From assembly GCA_021018995.1 (NCBI GenBank), contig CM037590.1:104099097-104163096 (forward strand): a DNA stretch of 64,000 nucleotides. The letters run 5' to 3'. The notes under the pieces were generated by a model, which made no database searches, was not told where the DNA came from, and worked only from the letters and a program-made list of their open reading frames with translations. Positions 92-61,104 of this stretch are shown here, piece by piece (the stretch's first letter is position 1; each line of letters starts with the position of its first letter). The position numbers and the translations under genes are program-made. This DNA is from Chloranthus sessilifolius. Its lineage: Eukaryota > Streptophyta > Magnoliopsida > Chloranthales > Chloranthaceae.

Positions 92-272
92 CCTGGCGCA
101 ACTATTAGTTGCGCCACCCGCTAGGGGCCTCAAAATAGCCTGGCGCAACTAATAGTTGCGCCAAGCATAGTTGCGCCACCCGCTAGGGGCCTCAAAATAG
201 CCTGGCGCAACTAATAGTTGCGCCAAGCAAAAGGTGGGAAACATTTTGCCTGGCGCAACTATTAGTTGCGCT
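92..272. repeat. Cluster of four 21-bp palindromes upstream of the PMD gene
   Basis: Four copies of an inverted repeat with arms GGCGCAACTA and TAGTTGCGCC around a single A or T lie at 95-115, 142-162, 204-224 (all exact) and 252-272 (one end base differs). A half copy sits at 168-177. Positions 106-167 and 168-229 form a 62-bp tandem duplication carrying the palindrome. The cluster ends just before a TATA-like box. Confidence 0.95.
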
Positions 273-288
273 AGGCTTGGCTGGGGGG

Positions 289-298
289 AATTTAAATA
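289..298 (+). promoter_or_regulatory. TATA-like box of the PMD cargo gene
   Basis: The string AATTTAAATA sits about 17 bases after the last palindrome and is followed by a pyrimidine-rich stretch (330-480) that looks like a plant 5' leader. The palindrome-then-TATA order is the same as in the LTRs of this family. Promoter activity is inferred. Confidence 0.5.
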
Positions 299-485
299 GC
301 CCAAGTTCGGGCTGGGGGGCTTTATTTCGAATTTTTCTCCCCCTCCTTCCTCTTTGAAACCGAAAACTGCCCCCCTCCTAGGGTTCCTCTACATTGCCTC
401 TACGCATCCCCCATTGTCGTTGCTTTGCTTATGTGGATCGATTGTCGGCTCACGCTAGATCAAAAACCATTTTTTCTTTTAAGAG

Positions 486-1512
486 GTAACCATTTAACAC
501 CCATTTTCTTTGATTTTTCTTGCTTTTTCTTGCAAATATGATCATGATCTTGCATTCCTAGATGAAAAATAGTTTATTTCCATTGTAAGCATTGATTGAT
601 GATGTGTGAATGGTTTTTCCTGAATAATGCCCCTTTTTTGTGTTTTTTTTTGTGGTTTTATGGGTTTTATTAATATTTGTAAACAATAATAATTTTTGTT
701 TATGTTTTTATTGGTGCTTAGAAAAGGGGTTTTATTTATTATTTTTCTTTGTTTTTATCTTGAATACCAAGCAAGGATACTATTTAGGAAAAGGGAAAAT
801 TTTTGTTTGTTTTTTTTTTTTTTCTTTTTTTTTTGAAAGGTTAATAAAAAATGATTTTTGGTTCCTATATATATTGAAAACTAATCAAAGGAATTTTTTT
901 TTTCGATTTTCTTTCTTATACTTAATTAAGGAAAAGGATTTTGCCTTTAAAAATTTTATTGTTTGAAAACTAAGGCATTGATTTATATATATATTTTTGT
1001 TTTAGTTTTTTCTTTTTGTAAAAGAGGATTTTTTTTTTTATTTAATGGACATAAAGGGAGGGATTTTTTTTTGAAGGAGTTTTTTTTCTTTTGCTTTTTT
1101 GTTTTTGATTTTATGAACCATGAAGAAAAGAATTTTTTTATTTGTTTTTTCTAAAACCCCCCTTTTTTTGGCATAAAGGAAGGACCCTTTGGTTTTGATG
1201 ATGAATTTTTTTCAAAATGGCTTTTATTTTTAAACATAAAAGAAAGGGGGATTTATTTTATTATTATTATTATTTTTTTTTTCTTTACATTCTAAGATAG
1301 AAAGGAGGGGATTTTTTTGCATTTTCAACCTAAAAGGGATTTTGTTGTTTTTTGTTTTTGTGCTTTTTTTTTTTGCCTATGTATGTGTACATCTTTATTT
1401 CCTGACCATGAATAGCGAGAGGGTGAGCATACTCACCTTCCCTTGGTATGTAGCACAAAAACCGTCCGTTACCACTGATCTATTCTAATGTGGATGCCTT
1501 TTGTTGTCCCAG
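486..1512 (+). other. Probable T-rich leader intron of the PMD gene
   Basis: This stretch begins at a donor-like GAG|GTAACC and ends at a strong acceptor, TTGTTGTCCCAG, just before the ATG at 1514. The interior is very T-rich on the plus strand, which is typical of plant introns. Two long Phe/Leu-rich open frames inside it (640-1154) are products of the T-rich composition and are not called as genes. Confidence 0.5.
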
Positions 1513-1513
1513 C

Positions 1514-3935
1514 ATGTCAGGCGAGGGTGAGCACATTCCTAAGGAGGGCCACGAGGAGGGGCCTAAGATAGTGTACGGCCCGCGGGAGGAGCAGTTCATC
1601 TGGGTAGATCGGAGAGTGGGCCCATGGCTCAAGATGCAAGGCGAGGTTGCCCAGGTCGGCCTCCTTCACCAACAACATACCCACATTTTAAATTTTGGGA
1701 TAACGGGCAAGGTAAAAGAGAGGTTCAATTTATTTCTATTATGCAGTTTTTGCTTTGCCTTTGTGGTCTGATGCCCATTTTCTTGGGTGCAGGACTGGCC
1801 CAACATTGTGTTCCGCGAGGGTGGCTCGACTTTCACGAGTTCTACCTCTACGTCCCTCCCATGGTAAAGGTCCTTCTGGCACAGGTGGGCTTCAGAGAAT
1901 CTCTATCTTGCCCCGCCATGAGGGCCGACGCTGCCTATCTGAAAGCCCTGATTGAACGGTTTCGCCCTGAGACGATGACCTTTCACATGTCGTATGCAGA
2001 GATGACCTTGACACCGCCAACTAGGCCATGATTACCGACATCAGGATAGGGGGATACTGATATCCGATCTCACGGTGCCGAGTCGAGAGGACATCATTCG
2101 ATTGATTGGGGCCTATCCTCCTCGCAGGTAGGCACATGGCACCGAGGTCAAGATGTCTTGGCTGACCTCACTTTATACACCTGATGAGTTAGTGGATATG
2201 GGTCTGCCAGATAGGGTGCTCTACATCACGCCCAAGCGGGCGATCATACTAGCCCGTATTACTCTCTTGGTCCTGCTTGGTAAGACCCTTTTCACCAATG
2301 CGAGCGGTGGCCGAGTCAGCCTAGCCTTGCTGAGGGTGATGGACAACTGGGGTGACGTCCACAGGTATGACTGGGGAGGGGCAGGGTGTGCATGGCTGAT
2401 GTACAATTTGTCTAGGGTCACGACGTGGGATTCAAAGTCTATTGTTGGATTTGGGGCTGCCCTGGAGGTAATTCCTCATTCCTTTGCCTTTGCCATTTTT
2501 TTCAAATGATCCATATATGCTATTGACCCGCTCTTGTGCAATGCCCCCCTTTTCAGGTATGGGGATACCATCACTTTCACTCTGGGAGCCCGCTTCTTTT
2601 CTCGGAGGTGCTTACATATCCCCTCCTCAGCAACTGGAATCAGGCCCAGTGCCGCGATGTAGGTTTAAAGCACTTAGAGACAGGTCTGAGGTCCCAACTC
2701 GACTTGATGGTTCCTGAGCAGGTAAAACTCTCTTTCAACTTTGTTTATTTTTAGCTCGGGAATCTCCTTTATTGATGTCCTAACTGCTTGGATTCTCTCT
2801 CTTTTTTTTTTACTTAGGCATATCTTCCCTGACCCGTACCTTGCATCCCCCTTCTGGGACCAAGCAGCTGTAGGCGCTTTCCGCCTATTTAACAATCACC
2901 GCATCATTTTCTTCTATGGAGCATGGGCCAAATTCTATTATCTAGGGGAGCAGGTCGTGCACCAATTCCAGGGTTATTATGCCATACCTGTGGACCCTCC
3001 GACGGATGTTTAGTATCCCGTTGGCAGTATCGAGGAGCTTATCGTGGCCTTCTTCAATAATGGGCTTCCCATCCATGCTCTCTATGTGCCCGGGGACTAT
3101 CATCTTTGGTACGAGTGCTTGTTGTACCGGTTTATCTTGGCTCGCTTTGTACCTAGCGCCAATTTTCTTGCGTTCGGTGGCCCTCTCGGCCAGGTAATTC
3201 TTCTTAGTTTGGATTAGTTCCCTTTATGCTTTAGCTCGGTCCTTCATTCCTTCTAAGCAGATCTTTATTTTGTTCACAGTTTGCTCCAGGGGATGATTCG
3301 GATGGTGAAGGCGGGACGGGTGCAGCTGATATGTCAGGGGAAGATCCCTCCGGTGCTAGCCCTTCTGGTGTGGGTCCCTCGAGCGAGGGCTCCTCAGGTG
3401 CTAGTCCGTCAGGTACCTCTCATGCTGGTATCCCTGGTGGCGATCCGCCCGTTGTCTATGGAACCTTTCGGCTCCTGGATGACAGCTTCCTTTCGGGCCT
3501 CTGCGCGGACGTGGATCGACAAGTGCGATTTTCTGCTGAAGCAGCCCGTGTCCCTCCTCTTGAGGTTGTTCCAGGGGTAAGTCTGCTAACGACCCAATCT
3601 CTTTCCATTTCAGCCTCCTATTGTACATGCTTAAAGATTGCCCTGATAATTGATGTTATATCGTTCTAAAAGTAGGATTTCAACTCGGCCATGGAATATG
3701 CGGAGTACTATCATCATCTTGCAGAGCTTAGGGAGGTGGAGACGGTGAGTACCTTGCTGCCCTACTCCTCTCATTCATTTCATTATCATTTGTCCCTTAA
3801 CTGATCTTGACTCTTGACTTTGACTGTGCCTTGCAGCATGCTTGTGCTAAGGAGTCGCGCTCTTTACTCAGTAGGATCTTGCAGGCATGGTCCTCTTGCC
3901 GTCACAAGAAATCAAATGGCGTGAGCAAGGAATAG
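1514..3935 (+). CDS. Plant mobile domain (PMD) / MAIN-like cargo gene, multi-exon, antisense to element A
   Basis: The ATG at 1514 (MSGEGEH) directly follows a leader-intron acceptor. Coding blocks resemble the plant mobile domain (aminotransferase-like, PMD) family of MAIN/MAIN-like proteins: a block with GWLDFHEFY and LIERFRPETMTFHMSYAEMTLT (1792-2031), one with TLFTNASGGRVSLALLRVMD and YDWGGAGCAWLMYNLSR (2153-2470), one with DPYLASPFWDQ (2820-3000), and a Ser/Gly-rich acidic part near 3300-3480. The blocks are separated by GT-AG gaps (about 1709-1791, 2468-2554, 2720-2819, 3194-3280, 3576-3674 and 3745-3837), so this is an intron-bearing gene. PMD proteins of the host are nuclear factors in silencing, and PMD ORFs are also known as antisense cargo of Tat-lineage elements. 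It is not intact as it stands. It may be a captured host gene or long-term element cargo. Confidence 0.7.
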
Positions 3936-4295: not shown

Positions 4296-4405
4296 TGTAT
4301 AGTTGCGCCAGGTTGAAATTCTAGAAAATATGTATTGGTGTAACTATTAGTTGCGCCAGGCTCAACCTGGGGGAGAAAAACACTGGCGCAACTAACAGTT
4401 GCGCC
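4296..4405. repeat. Palindrome cluster upstream of the DUF7745-like gene
   Basis: A half copy (TAGTTGCGCCAGG) lies near 4299-4312, a partly decayed full copy near 4336-4358, and a copy with a single mismatch at 4385-4405. This is the same 21-bp palindrome as at 92-272 and in the LTRs. Confidence 0.9.
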
Positions 4406-4430: not shown

Positions 4431-4440
4431 CCTTATATAC
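4431..4440 (+). promoter_or_regulatory. TATA-like box of the DUF7745-like gene
   Basis: CCTTATATAC lies about 26 bases after the last palindrome and about 130 bases before the ATG at 4573. Position and spacing match the PMD gene and the LTR promoters. Function is inferred. Confidence 0.5.
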
Positions 4441-4572
4441 CCGAGTTAGTCCAAAAATCACTTCTTTTTGTTTGTCTTGGCCCTTTTGATCGGTTCTTTT
4501 GCTCTTGCTTTCCCAAGGCAGGTCCATCACCATACAATGATTTTTGTCTTCTAAGAAGATCTGTGTACGTTC

Positions 4573-6069
4573 ATGGGCCCGCTTTCTAACCCTCCCTTAC
4601 GTGGAGGGCCTGGAGCCAATTTACCCCCTTCCTTGGGCTTGGGGCCCAAACTTCTAACAGCCTGGCTTGGGAGCTTGAATGAGAGTGAGCTCACCGACTT
4701 GGAGCGCCTTGGGCTATCTCGCCTTTCTTCCTTTCTAGAGGTTCCTCCACGGCGGGAGCTCCTTTTCACTGTCGCTTCATTTTGGGATGTGAATTCCCAT
4801 GTATTCCGTTTTAGGAAGCGGGAGCTAACCCCAACCCTTGAGGAGCTATCCAATCTATCTGGCATGAAGCTTCACAGGGGCCTTGCAAGAGTCACGCCTC
4901 AGCCGGGCTACTCCAAATCCATTCACCTTACTCTCGATTTGAAGAAACTCGAGTATGAGAAAAATCTCATTGGGGGGCCCACAAGGTGTTCCCTAAAATT
5001 CCTCAAAGAACTTTTCGGTGACAAAAGTCTCCGAAGATTGCCGATTAGGAATATTTTCAACGTGAAAGGTCTAGCACTTGATCTCATCTCTGAAATCCTC
5101 TTCTTTACTGGGGGGAGAGCTTCTCGTTGGCAATTTGTGACATTTTGACGGAGCTAGAGGCGGGCCGATCCATGATGCATTTGGTACTCGCCGAGTTGTA
5201 TCGAGGCCTTGATTCATTTGCTTTTGGCAAGGTGGAGGGCCTTCGGGGGTGCCCCTTGTTGCTTCAGGTATGATTGGGTAAGCACCTCGCTATCTTGGGG
5301 CCTATGCCCCATTTTTATATTGCTCGAGGTGAGGCGGCTCAGTGCTTTCTGGGTAGGTGCCATTTACTTCCACAGGGCGATGTGTCAGCTCTGAAACTTT
5401 AGTTGACCGATGCCGAGCTGACATGGAGGGTTCCTTGGTTGGATCGGACCTTCCCAGTAGTTCGCTCTAGAGACCATGAGGGCATCACCCTCCTAGGATT
5501 GACTGGCAGCACCTTTTACTTCCCATTCCGAGTGTTGCGTCAATTTAGCTGCCCTCAGCAAGTGCCTTGTGAGGCCAGACCCCCTTTATGTGATTTGATC
5601 TTTTCTAGGGGGTCCTTTAGAGACATAGATCGGATTGCTGCTCTTTGGGAGACACGTCAGTTGACAGTGATGTGTGATATCGAGCAGGGAGATTCAATTC
5701 AGGCTTCTCCTGAGTACGAGGCCTGGCTGTTGACTGAGTGGCCTGCTGCTGATGGTTCAGATTCATCCGAGATCATTGACACTAGAGGCCCCTGGCCAAA
5801 GAAAGAGACGGCACTCTGAGCCCGCATCGAGCTACTGGTGGATGAGAAGAGGGTCCTGTGAGAACTTTTGGCACATGAAAAGGTTAGAGCAGACATAGCA
5901 GAGAGCGAGGTCCTCCGTTTGAAGGGATCACTGAGCGTCACTTTTGGAGCCGCCGACTCTTCTCAGAAGAGGTATAAGAGCCTGCATGGTCGCTGGCTTA
6001 CTGAGCGAAATGTCTAGGAAGATGACCTTCATGCTGAGATTAGCGCATTGAAGCGCGAGCTACGTTGCT
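4573..6069 (+). CDS. DUF7745-like cargo gene, antisense to element A
   Basis: The first block (ATG at 4573) has the layout of plant DUF7745 proteins: LTAWLGSLNESELTDLERLG, then FWDVNSHVFRFRKRELTPTLEELSNLSGM, where a tryptophan-aspartate step precedes a conserved PT-x-EE segment. Later blocks (5150-5400 and 5403-5819) have AELYRGLDSFAFGKVEG and WRVPWLDRTFPVVRSRDHEGITLLGLTG, again typical of this family. The end (5820-6069) is rich in Glu, Arg and Leu and looks like a coiled coil. DUF7745 has no assigned biochemical role; it is often found next to plant retroelements. The gene lies on the plus strand, opposite to gag-pol, and is not intact. Family call is by recalled motif pattern; function unknown. 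Confidence 0.6.
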
Positions 6070-7544: not shown

Positions 7545-8740
7545 TATCTAGCATTTATGGGCTCAGGAAGATGATCTCCGTCCATGGTGGCGAGGCGGAT
7601 GGCGTATCCCAGTAGTACTTCTCAAATGACGTAAGGTCCTTCCCAGTTTGGCTTGAACTTGCCTCTCGGATCGGCATGAAAGGATGGGAAGATCTTCTTC
7701 AGTACAGTGTCTCCTACCTTCAGATCTCGATCGCGGACACGTTTATTGTAAGCACGTGCAATTCACCCTTGGTAAACTTGAGCATGACACAAGGCTAAGA
7801 GTCTCTTCTCGTCTAGTAAATTCAATTGTTCAAAGCAGGATCTCTCTCTTTCTGCTTCGGGTAAGCCTGATTCCATGAGGATTCGGAGCGAGGGTACTTC
7901 AACCTCTACTGGTAGGACGGCCTCAATTCCATACACAAGGGAGAATGGTGTTGCCTCTGTAGGGGTACGGATCGACGTTCTGTAGGCCGATAAGGCAAAT
8001 GGAAACATTTCACTCCAATCTCGGTAAGTGACAACCATTTTCTCAAGGATGTGGATGACCATCTTGTTCGCAGCTTCCATGGCTCCATTAGTTTGAGGCT
8101 GATAAGGTGACGAGCGATGGTGCTTAATTTTGTATTGCTCACAGAAGGCTCGGACGCGCTTATTTGCAGAGTTTGTGCCATTGTCTATGATGATATCTTT
8201 GGGTACTCTAAATCGACACACAATATTACTCTTGAGGAACTTCTTAACGTGACTGGCCGTGATGTTGTCATATGATGCTGCTTCTACCCGTTTGGTGAAG
8301 TATTCAATGGCGACGAGGATGAACCGATACCCATTTAATGCTTTCAGATTAATCATTCCAACGATGTCAAGGCCCCAGGTAGCAAATGGCCAAGGAGTGG
8401 TCATGCAGTGAATATCGATGGTAGGAGAGTGTATCAGACTGGAGTGCTCCTAACACTTGTAGCATTTCTGAACATGTTTGTAGCAATCTAATTCTATAGT
8501 GGTCAAAAAGTATCCCTGTCGCAGAATTTTCTTAGCAAGCATGTGACCGCTGACCTGGGATTTGCATACTCCTTCGTGGATCACTCTCATGATGTTGGTC
8601 GCTGCACTTTCAATAAGGCACTTGAGTAAGATGTTATTGTACGATCGCTTGTAAAGGCATTCCCCACAAATGACATAGCCTACTGCTAGATGCTGGATGG
8701 TTCGTCGGTCCGTCTTGGATGTACCCTCAGGGAAAGTTAG
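7545..8740 (-). pseudogene. Element A integrase region
   Basis: The minus-strand piece 7763-8404 shows the gypsy integrase core: WPFATWGLDIVGMIN, ILVAIEYFTKRVEA, DIIIDNGTNSANK and [17 protein letters not shown], covering the D, D and E catalytic positions. The Cys/His zinc-binding part lies just upstream in the element (8440-8600), and the C-terminal part with a GPYVI-like and GDHLPEPINA-like end runs to about 7545. Integrase inserts the element cDNA into host DNA. It follows the second RNase H as in element B. Broken fossil. Confidence 0.85.
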
Positions 8741-9439: not shown

Positions 9440-11004
9440 CTATCATTGTGCAGTTCGCCCAATAAGAGCCAGCTTCTCAAACAGGTATTTTAATGGGTCC
9501 ATGCGGGCTAGGATTAGTACGGCCTGAGATAGTAAGTAATGGCGGAGCCTCTGAGTAGCCCATATAAGAGCCAAGCACGCTTTCTCCAGATGATAATAGC
9601 GCGTCTCATAATCAGTAAATTTCTTGCTCCGATAGTAGATGGCCTACTCTCTTCTTCCCGTCTCGTCATGCTGACCTAAGATGCATCCCATTGAGACCTC
9701 CGTCGTGGAGAGATACATTAAGAGTGGTCTACCTGGCTCGGGTGGTACCAACACAGGTGGATTAAGGAGGTAGCTTTTGATTTTATCGAATGCTGCCTGA
9801 CAGTCGTCTTTCTATTCAACGGGCGAGTTTTTCCTTAGTAGCTTAAAGATCGGCATGCAGATTGGAGTTAGTTGTGCAATGAATCGACTAATATATTATA
9901 TTCTACCCAGGAACCCTTTGACTTCTTTCTCGATAGATGGTGGCGGCATCTCAGTGACAGCTTTGACTTTAACTGGGTCGACCTCTATCCCTCTCCTGCT
10001 AACAATGAACCTCAACAGCTTTTCAGACATAGCACCAAATGCACACTTCTGTGGATTCAGACGTAACCTATACTTTCTCAACCTTTCGAATAGTTTATGA
10101 AGGTTTACCAAGTGATCGCTTCGCTCCGGTAACTTGGCTATCATATCATCGACATACACTTCAATTTCTCGGTGCATCATGTTGTGAAACAGTGCAGTCA
10201 TAGCTCTTTGGTATGTTGCACCAGTGTTCTTTAGCCCAAATGGCATGACTTTGTAGCAGAAGGTTCCCCAAGGAGTGCTAAACATTGTCTTCTCTCGATC
10301 TACCTCTGCCATCTTTATCTAGTTGTATCCTGAAAATCCATCCATAAAATAAAGCATCCCGTGCTTTGCAGTGTTATCAACCAAGATGTCAATGTGCGGC
10401 AATGGAAAGTCGTCCTTCGGGCTCGTCCTATTCAAATTGCGGAAATCGATGCACATGCGGACCTTTCCATCCTTCTTCGGCACCGGCATAATATTGGTTA
10501 GCCACTGTGGGTACTTGGATACCATGAGGAACCCCGCGTCATACTGCTTGATGACTTCATCTTTGACTTTCAACATCCACTCGGGTCGGAGACGTCTCAG
10601 CTTCTATTTGACCGGCTTCATATCGGGGTAGAGAGGCAACTCATGCTCGACCAAATCAGTGTCTAGACCAGGCATGTCCTCATACGACCAGGCAAAAACG
10701 TCTTGGTATGATCGAAGGAAGTCGATCATGCTTTTCCTTTCTTCAGGAGACAATGACGTTCTGATTTTGGTTATTCTGGGAATCTCCTCAGTCCCTAGAT
10801 TGATGTCTTTAGTTTCCTCGACATTGGGGGTAGGGCCATGCTCAAAGTCAGCGAACCAGTCAAGGAGATCATTGGGGAGATCCTTCAAAGGACTATCCTC
10901 GTCCAGACTCATAACACCTACCTCTTCTTGTATTTCTATAGGGAAGGGGTCGATTTTACGTGGGATGGGTATTTTGATTAAGGCATCCTTTTGTGGGACT
11001 TTTT
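9440..11004 (-). pseudogene. Element A reverse transcriptase and first RNase H region
   Basis: 10604-10912 carries the entry segment with YQDVFAWSYEDMPGLDTDLVEHELP. 10319-10576 has the fingers and palm start (PVPKKDGKVRMCIDFRNLNR). 9896-10312 has TPWGTFCYKVMPFGLKNTGATYQRAM and the YVDD catalytic motif (10145-10156). RNase H follows at about 9440-9870. RT copies the element RNA into DNA. Element B has the same order at 50880-52500. Fossil with several breaks. Confidence 0.9.
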
Positions 11005-14849: not shown

Positions 14850-15640
14850 ATTTTCTTATTGTTGTTGCCTGGGTTGGGTGGGAATGAAATGAGTGGGGGT
14901 GGGGTGAGCCCATTGGGGGTGAGGAAAGGTTTGTTGGGTGATGGGATTTTGGTTTAGAGGTGGAGCCTGATGGGGCCATTGGGTATGGGGGAAGGTTTGG
15001 AGATGGCCTTGGGGTGTGGGGCCATGGAAAAATTGGGTTTGGGGTATGGCATGGGTTTGACCTGGCTGTGAAGGTTGGGTGAAATGTTGGGGGTATTGTA
15101 GAAGGTATGAGTGTGGGGTTTGAGTTTGGGCCATGAAGCCTTGGTCATTTTGGGCTATGGGCCACTAATGGGTTTGGGCTAGGGGCCCTTGGTAGGTTTG
15201 GGCCATGGGCCCTGGGTAGGTTTGGGCCATAGGCCCTTGATGGGTTTGGGCCAATGGGCCTGGGTAGGTTTGGGCCAATGGGCCTTGGTGGGTATGGGCC
15301 ATGGGTCATTGATGGGTTTAGCCCAATGGGCCTTGGTGGGTCTGGGCCATGGGCCCTTGATGGGTTTGGCCCAATGGGCCTTGGTGGGTATGGGCCATGG
15401 GCCCTTGGTGGGTTTGGCCCAAGAGGCCTTGATAGGTCTGGGCAATGGGCCCTGGGTAGGTTTGGGTGGTGGGGTATTGGGTCATGGGTCCCTGGGATAT
15501 GTGGGAAAAGGGGGTTTGGGCCAATGGGTCTTGGGGTATGTGGGAGGTTAGAGATTGGGCCATGGGGCCCTGGGGCATGTGGGTAATGGGAGTTTGGATG
15601 GTGTGGATTATGGGGGGTTGATGGGGGTCATTGAGGAGTG
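14850..15640 (-). repeat. Coding minisatellite (MAQTHQGP-type) in element A pre-gag
   Basis: Tandem units of about 30 bases encode variants of MAQTHQGPLGQTHQGP on the minus strand. Because of the repeat composition, several other frames are also open across it, including long plus-strand Gly/Leu/Trp-rich frames; these are shadows. Element B has a matching array at 46300-46800 with a different unit order. Confidence 0.85.
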
Positions 15641-16773: not shown

Positions 16774-16940
16774 CTGGCACAACTAATACATGCGCCCAGG
16801 TTGCAAGGGCACTTTTTTACACTGGCGCAACTATTAGTTTCTCCAAGGTAAAAAGTGGGATTTTAAAGCTGGCGCAACTATTAGTTGCGCCAGTTATAAA
16901 TTCTAGTTTTTTGCACTGGTGCAACTAATACTTGCGCCAG
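16774..16940. repeat. Palindrome cluster in the element A leader
   Basis: Four copies of the GGCGCAACTA/TAGTTGCGCC palindrome: one exact at 16871-16891, and decayed ones near 16775-16796, 16823-16845 and 16917-16939. They lie inside the transcribed leader, so genomic RNA could form short hairpins here. Confidence 0.9.
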
Positions 16941-17449
16941 GCAAAAAATGCTGCTCCAGAACTGATGATAGCAGGCACTAACACCCGAAATGAGTCTTTT
17001 TTTGGTTTTTTGTGGAAGCTAGGCTTTTAGGAACTTAGCTATTTTTCGGTGATCTATTCTCTCCTTACCGCACCTAACGGGTTTGAGTTCGGTATAACTC
17101 GCTAGCGCGCTCTCGAAGGGTTTTAAGCTTTGAAATGGGAACCCACCCGATATACCTCCGGCACAAGTGCCTTCTTAGATACTAGGTGTTCTGGGACTTT
17201 TCTGGATCATCACCACTAAGGGCTACCGCCATACTAAGACCCGGGTGGTTGTATGTGTGCCTAAATCCAACCCTTTGAAAATCTACCCCGTAAAAAATAA
17301 ATTGATTAAGTTTTTAACTTGGCTCAATTTTATTTTTTTTCAAAGCTTTTTTTTTTTTTTTTTGGAAGTTTTCTTTAGTTCAAAGACCGGGGATGATGAT
17401 CCCGTGCTGCCACTACGGGCCGACGTCCATTGTTGGGATATAAGTGAAC

Positions 17450-17620
17450 AAGTAGGCCCACCAATCAGCTAAGGCACTTTAAATGACAAAAAATTAAATG
17501 AATTAAAAGACAATGCTTAAGTAGGCCCGTCGATCGGCTAAGACACTTAAAATGACAGAAAAGTAAAGAAATTTAAAGACTATACGCAAGTAGGCCCGCC
17601 AATCGGCTAAGGCTTGTAAA
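17450..17620 (-). repeat. Triple GCCTTAGCCGATTGGCGGGCCTA-type leader repeat, element A
   Basis: Three copies of a unit of about 70 bases, each with a TAGCCGATTGGCGGGCCTAC-like core on the minus strand (near 17450-17476, 17519-17550 and 17589-17612). The same triple occurs at 37530-37705 in element B, close to the PBS. Confidence 0.8.
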
Positions 17621-18504: not shown

Positions 18505-18512
18505 TATTTATA
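18505..18512 (-). promoter_or_regulatory. LTR TATA box, element A
   Basis: On the minus strand the U3 reads CCTATAAATAGAGCC, a clean TATA box, followed by a CT-rich start region. It lies about 280 bases downstream of the palindrome cluster in element orientation. Confidence 0.7.
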
Positions 18513-43900: not shown

Positions 43901-44017
43901 TTGGAATACAAAGTGCAGGTTTAAAGAAAAAATTAAAATGAAAATCAGATCTACAAAATTGAAAAACTTAGGTCTACCAATTTTAAAATCTATTCCCCGG
44001 CAACGGCGCCAAAAACT
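40947..44017 (-). other. Internal region of element E, non-coding
   Basis: AT-rich, with long A-rich stretches (42600-43000) and no long coding frame. The plus-strand frame 41733-41981 is Phe-rich low complexity. It carries signals for replication (PBS, polypurine runs) but no proteins. Confidence 0.75.
43994..44011 (-). other. Primer binding site of element E
   Basis: The minus strand reads TGGCGCCGTTGCCGGGGA, the standard plant tRNA-Asp-type site, six bases inside the LTR. Confidence 0.92.
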
Positions 44018-45820
44018 TGTTGCTGTTCTAAGTGTGCATGATTTATTTATGTTTTGAAAACAGATTTGCAAATGATGAATAATACTGAATTTGGAAAACT
44101 AAAAAGAATAAAGAAATATTAGCACCGAGAGAAGTTAATTAGCCTGCAAGATCAGGGTCAATTGTAGCAAGTTTTAAATGTAAGTGAGTAAAAGATCGTC
44201 CACAGGGAATTGATTTAAAATATAAGATAAACCTCCATATCTGAGCTACCAGATATGCCCTCTGATCCTATCTACAAAGCACATAAGATGGGAGGTTGAA
44301 TTTGTCACATTAACTAAATGAGAAAAGTAAAAATTAAACTAAATGATCCAGATCCGAGTTGGGGAGATTTGATGTAAATTAATAAGAATGGAGAAATAAT
44401 ATCTAACTTCGACTTAGTACTTGATTGCAGAATGAGAATAAATGTAAAACACATGAGATATTATCCAATCTTCTTCTGACTACCAGCACAGATGCAAGAG
44501 AAAGTAATCCTACTCAAGGATTGGAGTTGAGTTGAACTTATGGCTATAGTCTGTCCACTTCAATGGACACAGATCATCCAATAGTCTTCACTCCGAATCC
44601 TTGATTAAGAACAAAAAACACCACTACAAATGCTGTGAGAAATCAAGTTACAAACACAGATTCTCACAGGGACAATGAATTAAGGGAAATTGCTTTAAAA
44701 ACAGTAAATCTAAAGGAATCTAATGAATAAGGAGATCACAGGGAACCCTCAACATGAATCCGATTGAGAACGTACTGTTCACAGCAACCTTTTCAAATTC
44801 ACCATTACAATTACAGAGCACAGTTTAAATAGCTCAGTCTTGAATACAATTCTCACAGTTCTCAATTATAAATAAACTGTAGTCTTAAATTATAGAAATA
44901 TCTCACAGTTCTCAATTACAAATAAAAGCTAGGCTATTACAGAAGTTTCAGACAAGCTATCTGAAATGGAAATGGGGCAATAGAAATGAAACTCAAAATC
45001 TGGATACCCAAATTGGGCAAATAGTTCATCTATTTATAGTTTTCCCCAAGTCCATCTCAGATGTGCATCAACCAATCAGAATTGGTTAGATCCATATCAA
45101 CCAATAGGAGTCGAGCACCAGGATCTAGATCCTGTTTCGCCAATCGAATCGCTTGATCTGGTTCAGCCAATCAGGAAACAGAGGCATCAATTCTGTTAGG
45201 AAATTCAAAAATCTGTTGGAACTTCTAGAAGTTCCCGCCAAGTAATTTCATTTTTGGGTGTTCACATGGGGTAGAATATGCCTCTGGTTTGTGCTTCGAA
45301 TCTTCTAGAATGCCTCTGGGTTTTTAAATGCATTGGGGGGCGTGCAGAGATTACCAAATTGCCCTTGCAGATGCTAGGAATCTTCAGGATACCATTTCGT
45401 AAAGTTTGAAGACCTTTTCGAAAGGTATTGTAACTTCTCCAAACTCTAGACAGATTGAGAGACCTTTTCAAAAGAATCAGAACCACGGAGATCTATTCGC
45501 AAAGATTGGGGACCTTTTCGAATAGCATTCTGTAGTGCATTCTTCTTTTCGAATAGCTTCAAACCTCTTTCCAGGTTGAAACCAAGCCTTTGGCCTCTTT
45601 ATTTTAGGCATTTTGACAGCCAGTGAGGTAGTCCTTTCTCCTTTTTCCTCTAGATCAAGATGGGTCATCATCTTTTTGGCACTTTTAAGCTACTTTCAAG
45701 GTTAAGCCTGCCTTTATTGTTAGCTGTAAAATAAACACTTAAAACACTTATTTAGTTCTCTCAAGGGTCTATCAAGGCCCAGATTAAGGGGTGGAAAATG
45801 GTATTTTCTAGTTCTCAACA
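44018..45820 (-). repeat. 5' LTR of element E
   Basis: Partner of 39136-40946, 1803 bp, with the same termini and the same TATA and TTTTCGAAAAG-type boxes (45410-45560). Confidence 0.93.
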
Positions 45821-45825
45821 CCCTA

Positions 45826-46300
45826 TAGACCCGATCCACCCACATTCACTTACACCACTTCCACCCTATCCAGTCCCCTGTAAAATCCCCCATCCATCCG
45901 AGTCATGCCCATTTTTATCGGGGCCATGCCCAACTTTCCTCATCCCTCCTCATCATGCCCCCCATCATCCCAAAACATACCCAATACATCCCCTCATCCA
46001 CCCCATATCCCCCCACCTACCGTGGCCATGCCCGATTATACCAGGGCCATGGCTAATTTTTCCACCACCTCCATCCCATCTATACCCCATCACCCCTTAA
46101 ATCCCCCATCTCCATCCAACCCTTCCTCCATGACCATGATGGAGGAGATGTTCCAAGCCTACTCCTTATGGAAGGCTTCTCAAAACACCCCCTCTCCTCC
46201 ACACCCCATAAACTCATCCCATACCCTAGCCAATCTCCATGCCTCACTCCCCCATGACCCCCATCAACCCCCCATAATCCACACCACTCAAACCCCCATT
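45826..46300 (+). pseudogene. Element B pre-gag proline-rich region, part after element E
   Basis: Pro/His/Ser-rich plus-strand frames with CPFLSGPCPTF and SSMTMMEEMFQAYSLWKASQNTPSPPHPINS. The last string matches the end of the element A pre-gag region (MTMMEEMFQAYSIWKAS). No known domain. Confidence 0.7.
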
Positions 46301-46800
46301 ACCCACTTACCCCAAGGCCCATTGGCCCAAACCCCCTTTTCTCACATATCCCAGGGGCCCATGGCCCAATACCCCACCACCCAAACCTACCCAGGGCCCA
46401 TGGCCCAGACCCACCCAAGGCCCATGGCCCAGACCCATCAGGGGCCCATGGCCCAAACTTATCAAGGGCCCATGGCCCAGACCCATTGGGCAAGACCCAT
46501 CAAGGCTCATTGTGCCAGACCCATCAAGGCCCATTGTACTAGACCCATCAAGGTCCATTAGGCTAGACCCACTAAGGGCCCATGGCCCAGACCCATCAAG
46601 GCCTAATGGCCCAAACCCATCAAGGTCCATTGGGCCAGACCCATCAAGGCCCTTTGGGCCAGACCCCATCAAGGGCCCTTGGCCTAAACCTACCCAGGCC
46701 CATTGGCCCAGACCAATCAAGGGCCCGTGGCCCAAACCTTCTAAGGGTCCATGGCCCAAACCTATCAGTGGCCCATGACCCCAACCTTCTAAGGGTTCAT
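46301..46800 (+). repeat. Coding minisatellite (GPMAQTHQ-type) in element B
   Basis: Tandem units of about 30 bases encode GPMAQTHQ variants, then PDPSRPI-like variants. The minus strand is also open across it (46307-46816) as a shadow. Matches the array at 14850-15640 in element A. Confidence 0.85.
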
Positions 46801-47233
46801 GGCCCAAACCCCCCACTCATACCTTCCACAATACCCCCAACATTTAACCCAACCTTCACAGCCGGGTCAAACCCATGCCATACCTCAAACCCAATTCTCC
46901 CATGGCCCCAAACCCCAAGGCCATCTCCAAACCTTCCCCCATACCCAATGGCCCTATCAGGCCCTACCTCAAAACCAAATTCCCATCACCCAACAAACCT
47001 TTCCTCACCCCCAATGGGCTCACCCAAGCCCCACTCATGTCATTCCCATTCAACCCATGCCACAACAATAGGAGAATCCCGCCCTCACTGCACATTATGC
47101 CGACCAGCAGTATGAAGAGGACGAGATTAAGAATAGCGGGGCCTATGTTGGGGCTTTGACCAGCCTCAACCCTCCTCCCATAATTACCCATCCCCTGGTA
47201 GCCCAGAGCAAGTCCTAGCTAGCTGTTGAAAAA
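46801..47233 (+). pseudogene. Element B Gln/Pro-rich pre-gag end
   Basis: MAQTPHSYLPQYPQHLTQPSQPGQTHAIPQ at 46799 matches MAQTQTPHSYLLQYPQHFTQPSQPGQ of element A (15134). It is followed by an acidic segment with YEEDEIKNSGAYVGALTSLNPPP leading into gag. Confidence 0.7.
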
Positions 47234-48163: not shown

Positions 48164-49176
48164 AAGGGTTTAATAACCGTTCTCCAACCATGACCTCCTC
48201 CCAATCTGATTCCATATAATTTTGACCCTAATACTCATTGCAATTTTCATCAGAGTCCGGGTCACCCGACTGATTGCTGCTTCCCATTGAAGCACGTGAT
48301 CCAGGACTTAATCGATGCTGGAAAGATCATTCCCCCTGCACTCGCCCAAGCAAACTCGGATGCGAATATCCATCAGGTGCCTTTACCACCACACCCTACC
48401 GGAATAGCAGGTCCTAGACCCACCATAGGGATGGTAGAAGACTTTGAAGAAGAATTGGAGTTTGATCCGTCAGACTTCGTTTGTAATCCAGAAATGTTTG
48501 TGGCACCAAGGCAAAGAAATGTAGGAGAAGGAACTGTTGGGGTGATTGAACCCCTGAATCTGGCAGATTATTTTCCTACCCCCACACTAACAGTTGAACC
48601 CCTAGATCTTAGGGCCTATTTCCCACCATCCACTCCCATTAACTACGTACAAATGAATGTGTATCAACCATATTCCACCACCCCCATCCATTACCCAATA
48701 AACCAACAGACCCCCGATCCCCCACCACCAATAAATTACCAATGGCCTGCTCCCACCCCATTATCGTCAGCTCAATCACATGCAAACTCTACCACCCTTG
48801 TCAATTCCCTCATGGCCCATCAAACCCCCAACCCTCCACCTGCACCCATCAATTATCAATGGCCTACACCCACACCATTACCCCCGGTACAACCACCATT
48901 AAACCTCACCACCCCTACCTGGCCAAATTTTGCTACCCCCCCATCCATCAGGAAGGAAAGTCATGTCTTACCTACCCTCTCAGAGCCTTCAGTACATGCA
49001 CTCCAGACACCGATAGCCATACCATTTCAGCTCTAAGGACCAACCTATGATCCACATCAGGTCCCGCTGAGCTACAAGCAAACCAATGCTAACGCCGGCA
49101 GCAGGAGCAGAGAGGGAGCCGTGGACTTTGTTACCAGGTCAGGGAAGATCTCGAGACAGCCTGAGATGCGTGGCGA
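48164..49176 (+). pseudogene. Element B gag end: Cys/His motif and proline-rich linker
   Basis: A C-H-H-C cluster (HCNFHQSPGHPTDCCFPLKH, about 48235-48295) with VIQDLIDAGKIIPP after it, then an acidic and Pro/Thr-rich linker (48287-49036) containing short repeats of INYQWPAPTPL. Same order in element A. Confidence 0.78.
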
Positions 49177-50178
49177 ATGAATAAAGAAGCAGAAAGACAA
49201 GCCCAATCTGTGGGGAAGAAAGAGAGCACTGTGAATCCGTTTGAGAAGATGGGTCGAGAACATATACTGGAGACTCAGCTGAAAAGAATGTCAGCCCATA
49301 TTACTGTATGGGATTTATTGATGACATCCCCACTCCATTTCCAAGCATTAATGGGGGCATTGAAAAATGTTCATGTATCACTTCAAGTCAACCCGGATGA
49401 AGTTGGGCAGATAATTGGTCAAGTGATGGCTCCCAATGCCATATCTTTTTCGGATGCGGACCTGCCAGAGGAGGGAAATAGTCATTCTAAACCTCTCAAC
49501 ATCACTGTGGAATCCGAGAACATGATAATTCCCTTGGTTTTAATTGACAAAGGATCTGCATTGAATGTGTGCCCATTGAGAACTGCCACCAAAATTGGGG
49601 TGGACCCCTGCATGCTGAGGACAACAAGGACGAGTGCTCGAGGTTTTGATAACACAAGGCAGGAGATCATGGGAGAAGTTGACCTTGAGCTCGTAATCAG
49701 GCCCATGACCTTTTCCATACCATTCCAAGTGATGGATATCAAATCCTCTTTTAATCTACTTATAGGACGCCCATGGTTGCATGAGGTTGGGGTAATACCT
49801 TCTACCCTCCATCAAAAATTGAAATTCATATCAGGACAGAAGGTGATCATCATCATTGGTGAAGGGCACGATGAGAAAGATAAGGCCACCCACAGCATTG
49901 AAAATCCTAAGGTAGTGGATGTGCCACATACTGAGGAAGACACCGACTTGCCCAATTTTGAATATGAGGTGTCAGCTGTAGGCCCAGAACCCCCTAGAAA
50001 CATCACTTCAGCAACCAACGGCGAAATGGAAGTAGCGGTGGCTATGCTCCAAAAGTGGGGCTATCAGAAAGGAAGGGGTCTAGGACCCAGATTACAAGGA
50101 AGGAAAGAGCCAGTTATTGCCAAGGGACAGAAGGTCCGATTTGGGTTAGGATTCAAGCCCATAGGAGAAGAGGTCTGA
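49177..50178 (+). pseudogene. Element B protease with G-patch-like tail
   Basis: The frame has PLVLIDKGSALNVCPLRTATKIG, an aspartic protease active-site pattern (Asp codon 49546-49548), then RGFDNTRQEIMGEVDLELVI and LLIGRPWLHEVGVIPSTLHQKLKF. Near its end (about 50023-50150) is VAVAMLQKWGYQKGRGLGPR with LQGRKEPVIAKG, a G-patch-like motif. The protease would process gag-pol. G-patches after protease are known in some retroviruses and plant gypsy elements. Confidence 0.85.
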
Positions 50179-50879: not shown

Positions 50880-52500
50880 AAAATGTCCCACAAAAGGATG
50901 CCTTAATCAAAATACTCGTCCCACGTGAAATCAACCCCTTCCCTGTAGAAATACAAGAAGAGGTAGGGATCACGAGTCTAGATGAGGATGTCCCCTTCAA
51001 GGAGCTCCCCAATGAGCTCCTTGACCGATTTACCGACTTTGAGTATGGCCCTACCCCCATTGTCGAAGAGACCGAAGACGTCAATCTAGGAACTAAGGAG
51101 GTTCCCAGGATAACCAAAATCGAAATGTCACTGTCTCCTAAGGAAGGAAAAAGCATGATCGACTTCCTTCGATCATACCAAGACATTTTTGTCTGGTCGT
51201 ACGAGGACATGCCTGGTCTGGATACTGATTTGGTTGAGCATGAGTTGCCCCTCTACCATGATATGAAGCCAGTCAAGCAAAAGTTGAGACGTCTCCGACC
51301 CGAATGGATGCTAAAAGTCAAAGACGAGGTCATCAAGCAGTATGATGCGGGGTTTCTCATGGTATCCAAATACCCGCAGTGCTAGCCAATATCGTGCACG
51401 TACCAAAGAAGGATGAAAAGGTCCGCATGTGCATCAATTTCTACAATTTGAATAGAGCAAGCCCGAAGGACGATTTCCCACAACCAGACATCGACATCTT
51501 GGTTGACAACACAACTAAGCATGGAATGCTCTCATTTATGGATGGATTCTCTGGATATAATCAGATCAAAATGGCAGAGGTTGATCCCGAGAAGACAGCG
51601 TTCATTACCCCCTGGGGAACCTTTTGCTATCAAGTCATGCCATTCGAACTGAAGAATGCCGGTGCAACATACTAGAGAGCTATGACTGCACTATTTCATG
51701 ACATGATGCACCAAGAGATTGAAGTGTATGTCGACGACATGATAGCCAAGTCATCGGAGTGAAGCGACCATCTGGTAAACCTTTAGGAGCTGTTTGAAAG
51801 GTTGAGAAAGTATCGACTACGTCAAAATCCACAGAAGTGCGCATTTTGTGCTATGTAAGGGAAACTTCTAGGGTTCATTGCCAGCAGGAGGGGAATCGAG
51901 GTCAACCCAATCAAAGTCAAAGCCATCACTGAAATGCCACCGCCATCTACTGAGAAAGAGGTTAGAGGGTTTCTAGGCAGAATACAGTATATCAATCGGT
52001 TCATTGAATAGCTAACTCCAATCTGCACACCGATCTTCAAGTTACTAACGAAGAATTCGCCCGTTGAATGGAACGATGATTGTCAAGCAGCGTTCAAAAA
52101 AATCAAAGGCTACCTCCTTAATCCACCTATTTTGGTACCACCCGAGCCAGGGAGACCACTCTTGATGTATCTCTCCACGACAAAAGTTTCGATGGGATGT
52201 GTTTTGGGGTAGCACGATGAAACAGGAAGAAGAGAGTAGGCCATTTACTATCTGAGCAAGAAGTTTACTGATTACGAGACGCGCTACTCTCATTTGAAGA
52301 AATCATGCCTAGCTCTTGTATGGGCTACTCAAAGGCTCCGCCATTACTTACTATCCCAGGTCGTTCTACTCTTGGCCTGAATGGACCTATTGAAATACCT
52401 ATTTGAAAAGCCAGCTATCACTGGACGAACCGCACGATGGAAACTTTTATTATCTTAATTTGACATCACGTACGTCACTCAGAAGTCGATCAAGGGGCAG
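50880..52500 (+). pseudogene. Element B reverse transcriptase and first RNase H region
   Basis: 50861-51385 has the RT entry (FLRSYQDIFVWSYEDMPGLDTDL; RRLRPEWMLKVKDEVIKQYDAGFL). 51379-51675 has PKKDEKVRMCINFYNLNRASPKDDFP and MDGFSGYNQIKMAEVDPEKTAF. The YVDD motif lies at 51727-51738. The RNase H part (about 52040-52480) has PGRPLLMYLSTT and FTDYETRYSHLKK. Fossil. Confidence 0.9.
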
Positions 52501-53178
52501 GCGCTTGCTGATCATCTTGCCGACAATCCTTTATCTGATTATGAGTCTTTGAGGACTGAGTTCCCCGATGAGGACATCCTGTTCATGACAGAAGACGATA
52601 GAGAAGAAGCAGAAGAATCATGGGTAATGCACTTCGACAGGGCAGCAAATGTCGACGGCCAAGGAGTTGGCGCCATCCTGATTTCACCAAAAGGATCCCA
52701 TGTACTGATCTCTATCAAGCTTAACTTCCCTTGCACTAACAACATGGCTGAGTACGAAGCTTACGCCACTAGTCTGCTGGCGGCTCTCGATCTGAATGTA
52801 ACTCACCTTGGAGTATTTGGTGATTCACAGATAATCATATGTCAGACGAATGGTGACTAGAAGATGAAAGATGAGAAATTGATCCCCTATCATGAACACC
52901 TCGAAGATCTGATAGCTTGCTTCCAAGAGGTGACTTTCTCACATGTCCCCAGGATAAGGAATTGCTTTGCCGACGCATTAGCAACTTTGGCGTCAATGAT
53001 TGAAATCCCCTATGGTGTTGAGATGAAGCCGATCGTGATCGAGCAGAGGAATGAGCCACCTTGGTTCTCAGATATCAAGAATTTCCTCGAGACCCTAACT
53101 TTCCCAGAGGGTACATCCAAGACAGACCGAAGAACCCTTCATTTGCGGGGAATGCCTCTACAAGCGATCATAGAATAA
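52501..53178 (+). pseudogene. Element B second (archaeal-type) RNase H region
   Basis: 52549-52860 has SWVMHFDRAANVDGQGVGAIL, SPKGSHVLISIKLNFPCTNN, MAEYEAYATSLLAAL and VFGDSQIIICQTNGD. 52864-53178 has LIPYHEHLEDLIACFQEVTF and VPRIRNCFADALATLASM. This order is the Tat-lineage second RNase H. Confidence 0.85.
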
Positions 53179-57533: not shown

Positions 57534-57547
57534 CAAAGAGGGGCATC
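57534..57547 (+). other. Polypurine tract of element B
   Basis: CCAAAGAGGGGCATC lies directly against the 3' LTR start, the usual place of the plus-strand primer. Confidence 0.6.
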
Positions 57548-59168
57548 TGTAGACACCCAACTTTAGCCCAAGGCCCGATCAAAACACCTTTCGAGAGAGG
57601 TACAATTCTGAGCTTTTGATGGCATGTATGGAACCTTTAGGAATCACCCCAAACCCTTAGGAATCACCCTAGATCCCTTAGGAACCTATCCCAAACCTTT
57701 AGAAACCAATCCCGACCCTAAGAACCCATTCCGAACCCTAAACCTAACCTTCCTGGGCAATGGATGAAGAGTGGTGCACTAGGACTACATGATGTCTTTT
57801 ATTGATATCAAATCATATACCATTAGAAATAGGACTTCTCCAAATTTCCAACGAGCCAAGAATTGCCTCAATCAGAGTTGTATATCAAGCGTTATGACCA
57901 TTTGAAAATCGGACTTTTTTGGAGAGATTTTTGCCTGGCGTAACTAATAGTTGCTCCAGGCCATTTTCCCCCTGGATTTGCCTAGTGCAACTAATAGTTG
58001 CGCCAGGTCTTTTTCCCCTAGAAATGGCTTGGCACAACTAATAGTTGCACTAAGTATAAATGCGTCCCCCCACCCCTCGCGAGGCCAACTTTCAGGCTAC
58101 TGTTCAACACTGTTTTACTGTACATTTGCCTAGCGCACCTAATAGTTGCGCCAGGCATATGAATAGTGACTATTGGGTTTTGCCCCAAATTTCATGTTTG
58201 GGGTTTGACTTGTTGACCACCTTGACCTTTGGAGTGTGTTTTGATAGTTCTGTTGCACCCATTCACTACCTATTTGCAACCCCTTAAGTGGCTTAAGGCT
58301 TCACCCCATCATCCACCATTGGAGGATCCTTCACACCTTTTCAAGCTCTTAAAATCCTAGGAAACCTTAGATGACCCATTACCTAATTTCTAATCTTACT
58401 TAGCCTCTAAGTAGCCTCCTAATCCACCCATTTCCTATAAATAGAGCCCCCCTCCCCTTGGTTTAAGGGTTGAGAATTTTGACCTAAGAGAGAAAGAGCT
58501 TAAGGTGAGAAGATCTTTCTCCCTTTGGTGCACACTTCCCATACAAATTCCAGAATTCTAAAACCTCCTTTGAGTGATATTTTTCACCTTAGATCCCTTA
58601 GTTTAAGTATATGCTATCCATTCACCTTCCCTCTCTACCTCTTAGTTAGCAAGCCTTAGAGGTTATAACCCCACTTTCCACCATACAAAGCCTTCAAGAG
58701 CTCATCAAAGTAAGCCAACGCAAGGCTCTCCTACGATGCTACAAGGGCCTGAGGGCTCCGGCTCTCCCCTTTCTTCTCCTATCTCCTTTTGGCATTCCCT
58801 ACTCTTTCATTTATGCAGTTACGCCGCCGAATGTTCGGTAGGAACGAAGGGGCACAATAGGATTGGAGGCCCATTTGGGTAAGAGGGAACCATTTTCTTG
58901 TCTTTTATATCATTTAATTTTTGGCCATAAGTAGAGACCGCGTTAAGTGGGTTGATCGGGTGCCTAACACCTTCCCGATCGATAACCAAAGCCCCTACCC
59001 AAGAGCCTTTGGTGTGAACCGGATTCAGAGTCATATTTTTAGCACCTCGATGCTCATAAAAATGAACTAGGTATCCCAGGACACCGAAAGCTCCGGGTGG
59101 CGACTCTATATTTTTTGTTAGAGAGCGCATCGTCGCAACGGGATCGTCTCGATTCCCACGGTTGCACA
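57548..59168 (+). repeat. 3' LTR of element B
   Basis: Starts TGTAGACACCC and ends TTGCACA, 1621 bp. It has palindromes near 57938-57958, 57984-58004, 58030-58050 and 58132-58153 (all with mismatches) and TATA at 58436-58443. Same layout as 35741-37361. Confidence 0.93.
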
Positions 59169-60468
59169 AGCACGACCCAACCACGCGCTCGAGAACTCAT
59201 TTATAATCCAAATCATGCGCACTAAACACTACTCGTAATAAAACCCTCGCCCGTACGAATGGCGCGACGCTCCAATCACGCGCCCAAGACCGAAAGCGTA
59301 ATAGCATTACACGCCCCACAAATTATGCGGAATACGAAGGGTCACCCACACAGATTATGTGCTCTGATCTAATTGCATAATTGGATTACATGCTTTCACT
59401 CATGCGCAGAATTCGGATCGACACCCGAACACTACTATTTTACCAACTCGGCGACCTTTCGATTGCGCGTTATACAAGAAGTGCATAATTATATTACACG
59501 CACACACCCAAACGCATAGTCGACTCCTTCAAGCCCTAAATCACGTGCTCCCGAACAGACAAAAAATTCAATTCAACACTTCAAATCAGGCACGTATTTC
59601 CCAGCTACAGCACACACCTCCAACAAAATAAGCACATCCTATTGCAACATGGGGCACCCATCATAAACCAAGCAAGGGCGAGTACATCTCCCCAAACGTC
59701 CCATCATGATCTGACTGGAGAGAGAGAAATCCCATCATGTAACATTACTTTCCCATCGCGATAGGATACACATATGCAAATGCCATCCCAACACCTAAGC
59801 TCAGTAGCCTAAATCAGCCATCCTATCACAAAAGCCAAAAATGAACTTTCGGAAAACCCTACCATTGCCAAGACCAAAGGCAAGTCCCTTCGCGATCTCG
59901 TGACTTCATCAATGACTTCATTGCATCCATCAAGGAATCACCAGACTAACTATCCACCGCACGCTCATAAACATGTCCCATCGTGATACAACCACAACGT
60001 GATCTCATATATCTTGAGATCTTCCAAAGAAAGAAACATCATCATTGCCTTATCACGACATTGAAACAACTGAGGAATCGATGACGTCACACATGTCCAT
60101 TCGTGATCTCACTACCACTCGCCTTACAAAATTTTTTCATCATGACACTACTACCTAAGACACTCAGACACAACCCGTCACGATGCACAATCAGGAAAGG
60201 AAGGCTCAGTCAATGTCCCATTGCAAAAAGTAGAGAGCCGAACCTTCCAAATCTCATTTGCGACCTACCTCAAATGTCCCATCGTGAGTATCTCACCAAG
60301 CGATCCGAGCATCCCGTACCCAGCAACTACCAAATCCCATCACAAACCATGCCTCCCCGAAATCCCATCGCATAACTTTGCATAACAAATTGAGGGGAAG
60401 GCTCGAGCATGTCCCATCACGAAAGCATAGAACCCGCCTCCCAAACACCTCACCTCGCACCAGATATC
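59169..60468. other. Flank beyond element B, F-type LTR-like, no gene
   Basis: 59190-59560 carries GTGCATAATT-type boxes like the F LTR U3. 59690-60420 carries about ten scattered copies of a TCCCATCGTGA-like word (for example near 59697, 59978, 60272 and 60408). The open frame 60103-60375 follows these words and is not supported as a gene. Confidence 0.5.
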
Positions 60469-60934
60469 TGTAGACACCCAAATTCGGCCCAAGGTCCGAT
60501 TGGAACACTTTTTGAGAGAAGCCCATCTCTGAGCTATTAATGGCATGCTTGAAACCCTTAGGAGCCTTACCAAAACCTTAGGAGTCATCCCTAACCCTTA
60601 GGAATCACCTAGATTCCTTAGGAACCTTCTCGAACCCTTGGATACCAATCCCCATCCTTAGGAACCATTTCGAACCCAACCCTAGCTTTCCTAGGTAGTG
60701 GATGAAGAGTGGTGCACCAGAGCTAGTTGGGCCCTTCTACTATGATCAAATCTTATACCATTGGAAAGTAGAGGTCTCCATCTTTTCAACAAATCAAGAA
60801 TCACCCTAATCAGAGCTTAACATCAAAAGTTATCACAATCGGAAGTTTGAAGCAAAATGAGCACTGTTGAACCTATCCAAGGTTCATTTGAACCTATCGA
60901 GAGGTTCATTGAACCTCGCAACAAGTTCCTTGGT

Positions 60935-61104
60935 CTTGCGCAACTAATAGTTGCGCCAAACCAAAATTAGGGAAATTTGGCCTGGCGCAACTAATAGTTG
61001 AGCCAGACCAACTCTTCCCTCTCTCTGCAGGCCGCCCACTCTGGGCTTTGGGCCTACACTATTTTACTATACATATGTTTGGCACAACTAATAGTTGCAC
61101 CAGA
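60935..61104. repeat. Palindrome cluster in the D LTR
   Basis: Three copies with one to a few mismatches to GGCGCAACTA/TAGTTGCGCC, near 60937-60957, 60984-61004 and 61080-61101, upstream of the TATA box. Confidence 0.9.

Follow-up and report, generated by a model that had tools for sequence, protein, structure and literature searches.

Palindromic repeats shared by the promoter and an accessory gene of one retrotransposon have been described for the Sireviruses, whose RM boxes cluster in the long terminal repeat (LTR) upstream of the TATA box, form further clusters upstream of env and lie within diverged flanks (PMC2829016). The cis-regulatory regions of several element families consist of arrays of repeats, which are sometimes palindromic (PMC10760457), and in VANDAL transposons, which encode the accessory protein VANC, one tandem-repeat motif recurs across several non-coding regions (PMC5735166; PMC10398659). 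Here, we analyzed a stretch of 64,000 nucleotides from Chloranthus sessilifolius (assembly GCA_021018995.1, contig CM037590.1, positions 104,099,097 to 104,163,096 of the forward strand), referred to as the window, which appears rich in LTR retrotransposons and contains two large Ty3/gypsy elements, A and B, and one further LTR of the same family, LTR C. In this family, a 21-bp palindrome recurs in the LTRs, in the leaders, which are presumably transcribed given their position, and in the putative promoters of two antisense PMD-like genes. We consider the Sirevirus RM boxes, found in Ty1/copia elements, to be a close precedent and the arrays described here to be a variant of that design in a Tat/Ogre-like Ty3/gypsy family: as in Sireviruses, palindromes cluster in the LTR upstream of the TATA box (here, 14 of 27 copies) and upstream of accessory genes (here, 6 of 27), and their flanks have diverged (PMC2829016).

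The palindrome, GGCGCAACTA-W-TAGTTGCGCC with the consensus GGCGCAACTAWTAGTTGCGCC, has 24 matches in the window at up to three mismatches, against 0.00 expected from 100 dinucleotide shuffles, which bears out the claim of the initial annotation that it is clustered in three settings. Allowing a fourth mismatch raises the number to 27 copies, the three added ones (36325, 38253, and 38300) all falling within existing clusters, and half sites are present at 168 and 4300. Perfect copies are found at 95, 142, 204, 16871, and 36177, exactly the five listed as exact in the first description of the locus, and the symmetry frequently reaches 29 bp (GCCTGG...CCAGGC). The most constant part is an 11-bp core, AACTAWTAGTT, with 8 deviations in 286 bases compared with 18 in the 156 non-CpG outer bases (p 0.0004); these counts, like the palindrome identities and pairing counts below, refer to 26 copies, omitting the one at 38300, which has a 1-bp deletion. 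The core may resemble plant MYB sites. An exact scan with the inner 19 bp matched four stretches in the genome contig collection (∼1.9 expected at equal base frequencies) and one in the viral contigs, each as a single site, and these matches were treated as chance.

The LTRs upstream of their main TATA box (3.5 kb) hold 14 of the 27 copies, the leaders (2.8 kb) seven, and the putative antisense promoters (0.6 kb) six, while the remaining 57.1 kb of the window, comprising the rest of A and B, the LTR sequence after the TATA box and everything outside the family, contains none. Relative to the LTR TATA box, the reference initially proposed for mapping, all LTR copies are upstream of the main box. 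The LTR arrays span 18796 to 18964 in LTR A (copies at 18796, 18897, and 18944), 36130 to 36345 in the 5′ LTR of B, or B5 (36130, 36177, 36224, and 36325), 57937 to 58152 in its 3′ LTR, or B3 (57937, 57984, 58031, and 58132), and 60937 to 61101 in LTR C (60937, 60984, and 61081), so that copy number varies from four in each LTR of B to three in A and C. The leader of element A carries an array at 16776 to 16938 (16776, 16824, 16871, and 16918) and that of element B one at 38253 to 38367 (38253, 38300, and 38347), with a decayed fourth copy seen in the alignment near 38207. Both leaders also contain a second tandem repeat with a period of 69 bp (17449 to 17611 and 37518 to 37702).

Upstream of antisense gene 1 in element A, the array extends from 95 to 272 (copies at 95, 142, 204, and 252 and the half site at 168), and a TATA-like box that may serve this gene (TTTAAATAG at 291, 291 to 299, plus strand) follows 18 bp past it. 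Antisense gene 2 is preceded by an array at 4300 to 4405 (half site at 4300, copies at 4337 and 4385), and a candidate TATATA box lies 28 bp past it (4434 to 4439, plus strand). All six antisense-promoter copies are thus located at most 300 bp upstream of TATA-like boxes that precede PMD-like genes, and LTRs A and B each have a TATAAA 3 bp after one palindrome copy. The distance between neighboring copies is 47 or 48 bp in 14 of 19 cases, corresponding to ∼4.5 turns of DNA, and otherwise 62 bp (once), 97 bp (once), or 101 bp (three times). TATAAA is also present in both leaders, antisense to the element and between the first two palindromes (38243 on the minus strand and 16895 on the plus strand), possibly as an antisense leader promoter or, equally, by chance.

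Based on their conservation, spacing, and placement, we read the palindromes as arrays of putative DNA sites for a symmetrical dimeric protein that form a shared cis-regulatory module, and we assign this reading a probability of about 0.62; the module is real and probably functional. A dimeric protein site was among the functions first suggested for the palindrome, and it is the best supported by the sequence. One dimeric protein would bind the arrays, so that a single type of site would be common to the LTR promoter, the leader, and the putative promoters of the two antisense PMD-like genes, which could allow the LTR and the antisense units to be switched together. Either a host factor or the element’s own PMD product could be the binder, with an activating or a repressing effect.

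Conservation of the palindromes is most apparent in comparisons with LTR C, in which they have diverged by 11 to 18% and the rest of the LTR by 30%, in alignments that the palindromes themselves help to anchor. Between LTR C and B5, 7 of 63 palindrome positions differ (56/63 identical, versus 906/1,298 in the rest of the LTR; p 0.0006); between LTR C and B3, 10 of 63 differ against ∼30% of the rest (p 0.016); and between LTR C and LTR A, 11 of 62 against ∼30% (p 0.045). In the two leaders, raw counts of identical positions between A and B are 53/61 in the palindromes and 248/323 in the flanks.

Several observations weigh against a conserved promoter module. The two LTRs of one element are identical at insertion as a consequence of reverse transcription, so the differences between B5 and B3 must have arisen afterwards, and these differences are more frequent in the palindromes (13/84, i.e., 71/84 identical) than in the rest of the LTR (79/1,324, i.e., 1,245/1,324 identical; p 0.002). 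In addition, the palindromes are not better kept than the remaining LTR between A and B5 (50/63 identical, with 13/63 differing, versus 1,011/1,260; p 0.87), and not significantly so between A and B3 (8/63 differing versus 20%; p 0.19). As for the promoters, the main LTR TATA box is located ∼380 bp beyond the near TATAAA, LTR C is without a near one, the TATA boxes of the antisense genes are consensus guesses, and the leader arrays come after the LTR promoter, where a pure promoter model does not need them. The absence of copies from the other 57.1 kb refers to settings whose limits were set once the copy positions were known. Spacers of the LTRs and of the antisense promoters, when aligned in reverse orientation, give mean z-scores of 1.1 to 1.9 relative to shuffles, so that a very old common repeat unit is possible. 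Finally, the leaders fold more stably than their shuffles (z of −7.18 for A and −2.19 for B), and two measures of covariation are slightly raised, being reached by 42 and 43 of 500 shuffles.

The last two results speak for RNA hairpins in the transcript, which could serve in packaging, dimerization, or translation, for instance. Any palindrome array folds well, however, so leader folding by itself does not favor a role of the RNA. Pairs changed on both sides number 4, compared with 3.6 in shuffles, and eight of the nine cells with a double change are in the outer three pairs, outside the 21-bp palindrome. Moreover, palindrome copies adjoin TATA-like boxes, and a symmetrical site placed closely before such boxes would fit a DNA-bound dimer better than an RNA role. 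The RNA hairpin that had been put forward initially as an alternative thus finds little support here, the two slightly raised measures notwithstanding, and we regard it as very unlikely.

The palindromes decay fast after insertion. When only nearby bases are considered, the difference between B5 and B3 is less pronounced (26/317 versus 13/84 in the palindromes; p 0.06). CpG transitions account for 14 of the 44 deviations from the consensus, corresponding to 0.135 per CpG base versus 0.068 elsewhere, in agreement with the suggestion in the initial annotation that methylation of the CpG sites in the arms could matter. That annotation had also proposed to compare the decay of palindromes and flanks, and the outcome is divided: after insertion the palindromes change faster, and relative to LTR C they are better conserved in spite of this. 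Taking B5 and B3 as a yardstick, a deficit of palindrome changes is seen in all five between-family pairs (p 4e-06 to 0.009), although these pairs share sequences and the tests are therefore not independent. Such a combination of fast, CpG-driven decay after insertion with slow change between subfamilies could be used as a test of function in silenced elements. The CpG decay in the arms would also be in line with the arrays being a target of silencing, where they would form hairpins and serve as sources or targets of small RNAs or methylation, a role suggested for Sirevirus palindromes, with their conservation as a by-product of an older cis-function, and the palindrome regions of Sireviruses do attract small RNAs (PMC10760457). 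Since silencing targets should lose conservation rather than keep it, this proposal leaves the conservation unexplained, and we consider it highly improbable.

Palindromes and spacers have behaved differently. Palindrome identity is 0.857 whether copies from one array (32 pairs) or from different settings (212 pairs) are compared, whereas spacer identity is 0.586 within arrays (0.490 shuffled; 7 pairs) and 0.507 between settings (0.482 shuffled; 65 pairs from 14 spacers), supporting the earlier remark that the sequence around the palindromes differs between clusters. In alignments of 16 spacers, most between-setting means have z-scores of −0.8 to 1.3. Because the spacers cannot be aligned between settings beyond weak z-scores, we ruled out that the antisense promoters are relocated copies of the LTR. 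Positions 106 to 229 form a pair of 62-bp units that are 100% identical, so that here the spacer has been homogenized too; the other within-array spacer pairs (seven, in direct orientation) are only 0.37 to 0.67 identical. Conversion would drag the spacers along, and we therefore ruled out gene conversion as the sole cause of palindrome identity. Of the two explanations offered at first, selection or gene conversion, selection accordingly agrees with the best-supported reading, and conversion alone does not fit. The same data bear on the idea that the palindromes are a functionless tandem repeat that slippage and gene conversion have multiplied. In its favor, the related Retand elements often contain tandem repeats, and variable ones (PMC11963269), the 62-bp duplication at 106 to 229 is exact, and copy number differs among LTRs. 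On the other hand, the differing within-array spacers, the near-shuffle level of identity between settings, and the better conservation of palindromes than of the LTR in comparisons with LTR C speak against a neutral repeat, and this explanation appears quite unlikely to us.

If the palindromes are sites for a dimeric protein, plant NAC factors offer one lead to a host binder. NAC dimers bind palindromic sites with gaps of ∼7 bp (PMC4844398), and 11 of the 27 copies read CGCAA-N7-TTGCG; GGCGCAACTAT, which equals the left arm plus the centre of the palindrome, occurs within a 32-bp stretch of the AAO3 promoter that is listed as an AtNAP-bound sequence (PMC4844398). The source paper surfaced through a string search, so this likeness may be due to chance, and, unlike NAC sites, the consensus palindrome has CGC in place of the NAC core CGT (PMC4844398). 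Given that the CGT core is absent, we keep NAC factors as a lead only. Literature searches with the arm or core strings returned no paper on retrotransposons by title.

Alternatively, the element might encode its own regulator, in that its antisense PMD protein would bind the palindromes and activate or de-silence both its own promoters and the LTR, comparable to the anti-silencing VANC proteins, which bind their motif in VANDAL transposons and remove methylation. This is a sub-case of the dimeric-site reading, in whose odds it is included, and taken separately we hold it to be unlikely. Arrays precede both PMD-like genes and occur in the LTR, VANC proteins bind short tandem-repeat motifs in the non-coding DNA of the transposons that encode them (PMC5735166), PMD clades found only in gypsy elements exist (PMC5418596), and a promoter motif is common to genes affected in host PMD mutants (PMC7156037); the option of PMD as the binder is thus an argument by analogy with these gypsy-only clades, the host mutants, and VANC. 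Against it, DNA binding by PMD would be conjectural: the model of one antisense exon has a pLDDT of 35, too low for a usable fold, and a search of PDB sequences with the same exon gave a single match at an E value of 0.35, with no solved relative. Furthermore, the host motif given for MORC1, CATGCAGTTT (PMC9899485), is by eye unlike the palindrome. Element B keeps its arrays without PMD genes, neither tblastn nor blastn having found counterparts of A’s antisense PMD-like exons in it, which is in keeping with either a host factor or assistance in trans. Were the element to regulate itself, PMD proteins made from palindrome-controlled promoters would bind the arrays of those same promoters, of the LTR, and of the leader, turning the element on or shielding it from silencing; elements of the B type, with arrays and without PMD genes, would be mobilized in trans; and gypsy-encoded PMD proteins would gain a molecular target.

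Compared with the RM boxes, the arrays differ in several respects. Their host is Ty3/gypsy by domain order, its accessory genes run antisense and resemble PMD genes, and the leader carries arrays as well (PMC2829016). A CGG-CCG core occurs in 12 of the 13 RM-bearing Sireviruses (PMC2829016), unlike the consensus given above, and here there are no general CpG islands (CpG observed/expected of 0.42 to 0.78 in six clusters and 0.53 in the window). The VANC motif is short and, in the accessible description, not said to be palindromic (PMC5735166), and VANDAL is a DNA transposon. Retand and Grande likewise have a long region between pol and the 3′ LTR that holds antisense genes, for which a regulatory role has been proposed (PMC11963269), where the antisense genes are of the TRP28 type instead of PMD and where the accessible text describes no motif common to the LTR and the antisense promoters (PMC11963269). 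A palindrome shared in this way in Ogre/Tat elements was not found described in the literature searched, subscription papers being mostly outside its reach. The accessory gene of Grande reportedly has its own promoter. Antisense genes, those for PMD included, are widespread among giant Tat retrotransposons, and one palindrome common to the LTR and to their putative promoters would provide a testable target; this putative link to antisense PMD genes is where the specialist interest lies. The comparison also suggests that a design known from Sireviruses, in which palindrome boxes mark both the LTR and an accessory gene, has arisen in another superfamily of retrotransposons as well.

The assignment of the family is based on its coding content. 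Element A, on the minus strand, extends from its 5′ LTR (17785 to 19318, approximate limits) to beyond the left edge of the window, and a Pfam scan of 10 of its pieces placed RVT_1 in 9899 to 10318 and rve in 7766 to 8449 (both minus strand), so that reverse transcriptase is ahead of integrase, which is the Ty3/gypsy order. Element B (35741 to 59168, plus strand) is bounded by LTRs at 35741 to 37361 and 57548 to 59168 (both plus strand, 93% identical) and contains a nested insert at 39136 to 45821. Seven of its pieces gave a weak gag, a G-patch, an RNase H-like domain, and integrase; the RNase H-like domain is a single RVT_3 match (52459 to 52857) ahead of integrase. In the Tat clade, an additional RNase H is located between RNase H and integrase (PMC6317226), and no second RNase H was identified in the pieces scanned. 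The flanks of element B, AGCAT and AGCAC, agree in four of five bases, and Ogre elements commonly have a 5-bp target-site duplication (PMC6911290). On the plus strand of element A, opposite to its own genes, lie antisense gene 1 (1567 to 2506; pieces 1567 to 2028 and 2132 to 2506), with weak collinear PMD matches (E values of 4.9e-05 and 0.0016, below the curated cut-off), and antisense gene 2 (4555 to 5816; pieces 4555 to 5145 and 5403 to 5816), with matches to DUF7745 (1.3e-05 and 0.041) and PMD (0.052 and 0.0065), likewise below the curated cut-offs. Four of the five antisense pieces scanned are weakly PMD- or DUF7745-like, in order, and the fifth (3235 to 3666) had no Pfam match. A PMD-bearing extra gene is present in 57% of Ogre elements (PMC6317226), and with its gypsy domains and weak PMD-like antisense genes the family fits the Tat clade, with Ogre as its nearest relative. 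The type of primer-binding site and an intron between gag-protease and RT are further marks of this group, and the primer site here may be similar to that of Ogre. The integrase piece of A had no relative in the viral contig collection, and the window had no Rfam or tRNA match.

Further features were seen in and around these elements. The G-patch domain of element B (E value of 5.4e-10) forms the C-terminal end of a frame at 49165 to 50175, ahead of the reverse transcriptase, and in the gag regions of A and B proline-rich open frames are encoded by tandem repeats whose periods are 24 bp or related to it (15121 to 15627 and 46289 to 46815). Direct repeats of ∼1.8 kb in the nested insert of B (39136 to 40947 and 44018 to 45821; 92% identical) are probably the LTRs of another element. 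LTR C, whose first part lies at 60469 to 61902 (plus strand) and a further part at 63779 to 63999 beyond an insert, contains at 62017 to 63251 a sequence that is 70% related to this repeat. Two inverted arms of ∼2 kb (22299 to 24338 and 25448 to 27518; 95.6% identical), with gag- or protease-like open frames within and between them, are perhaps two head-to-head elements or a foldback.

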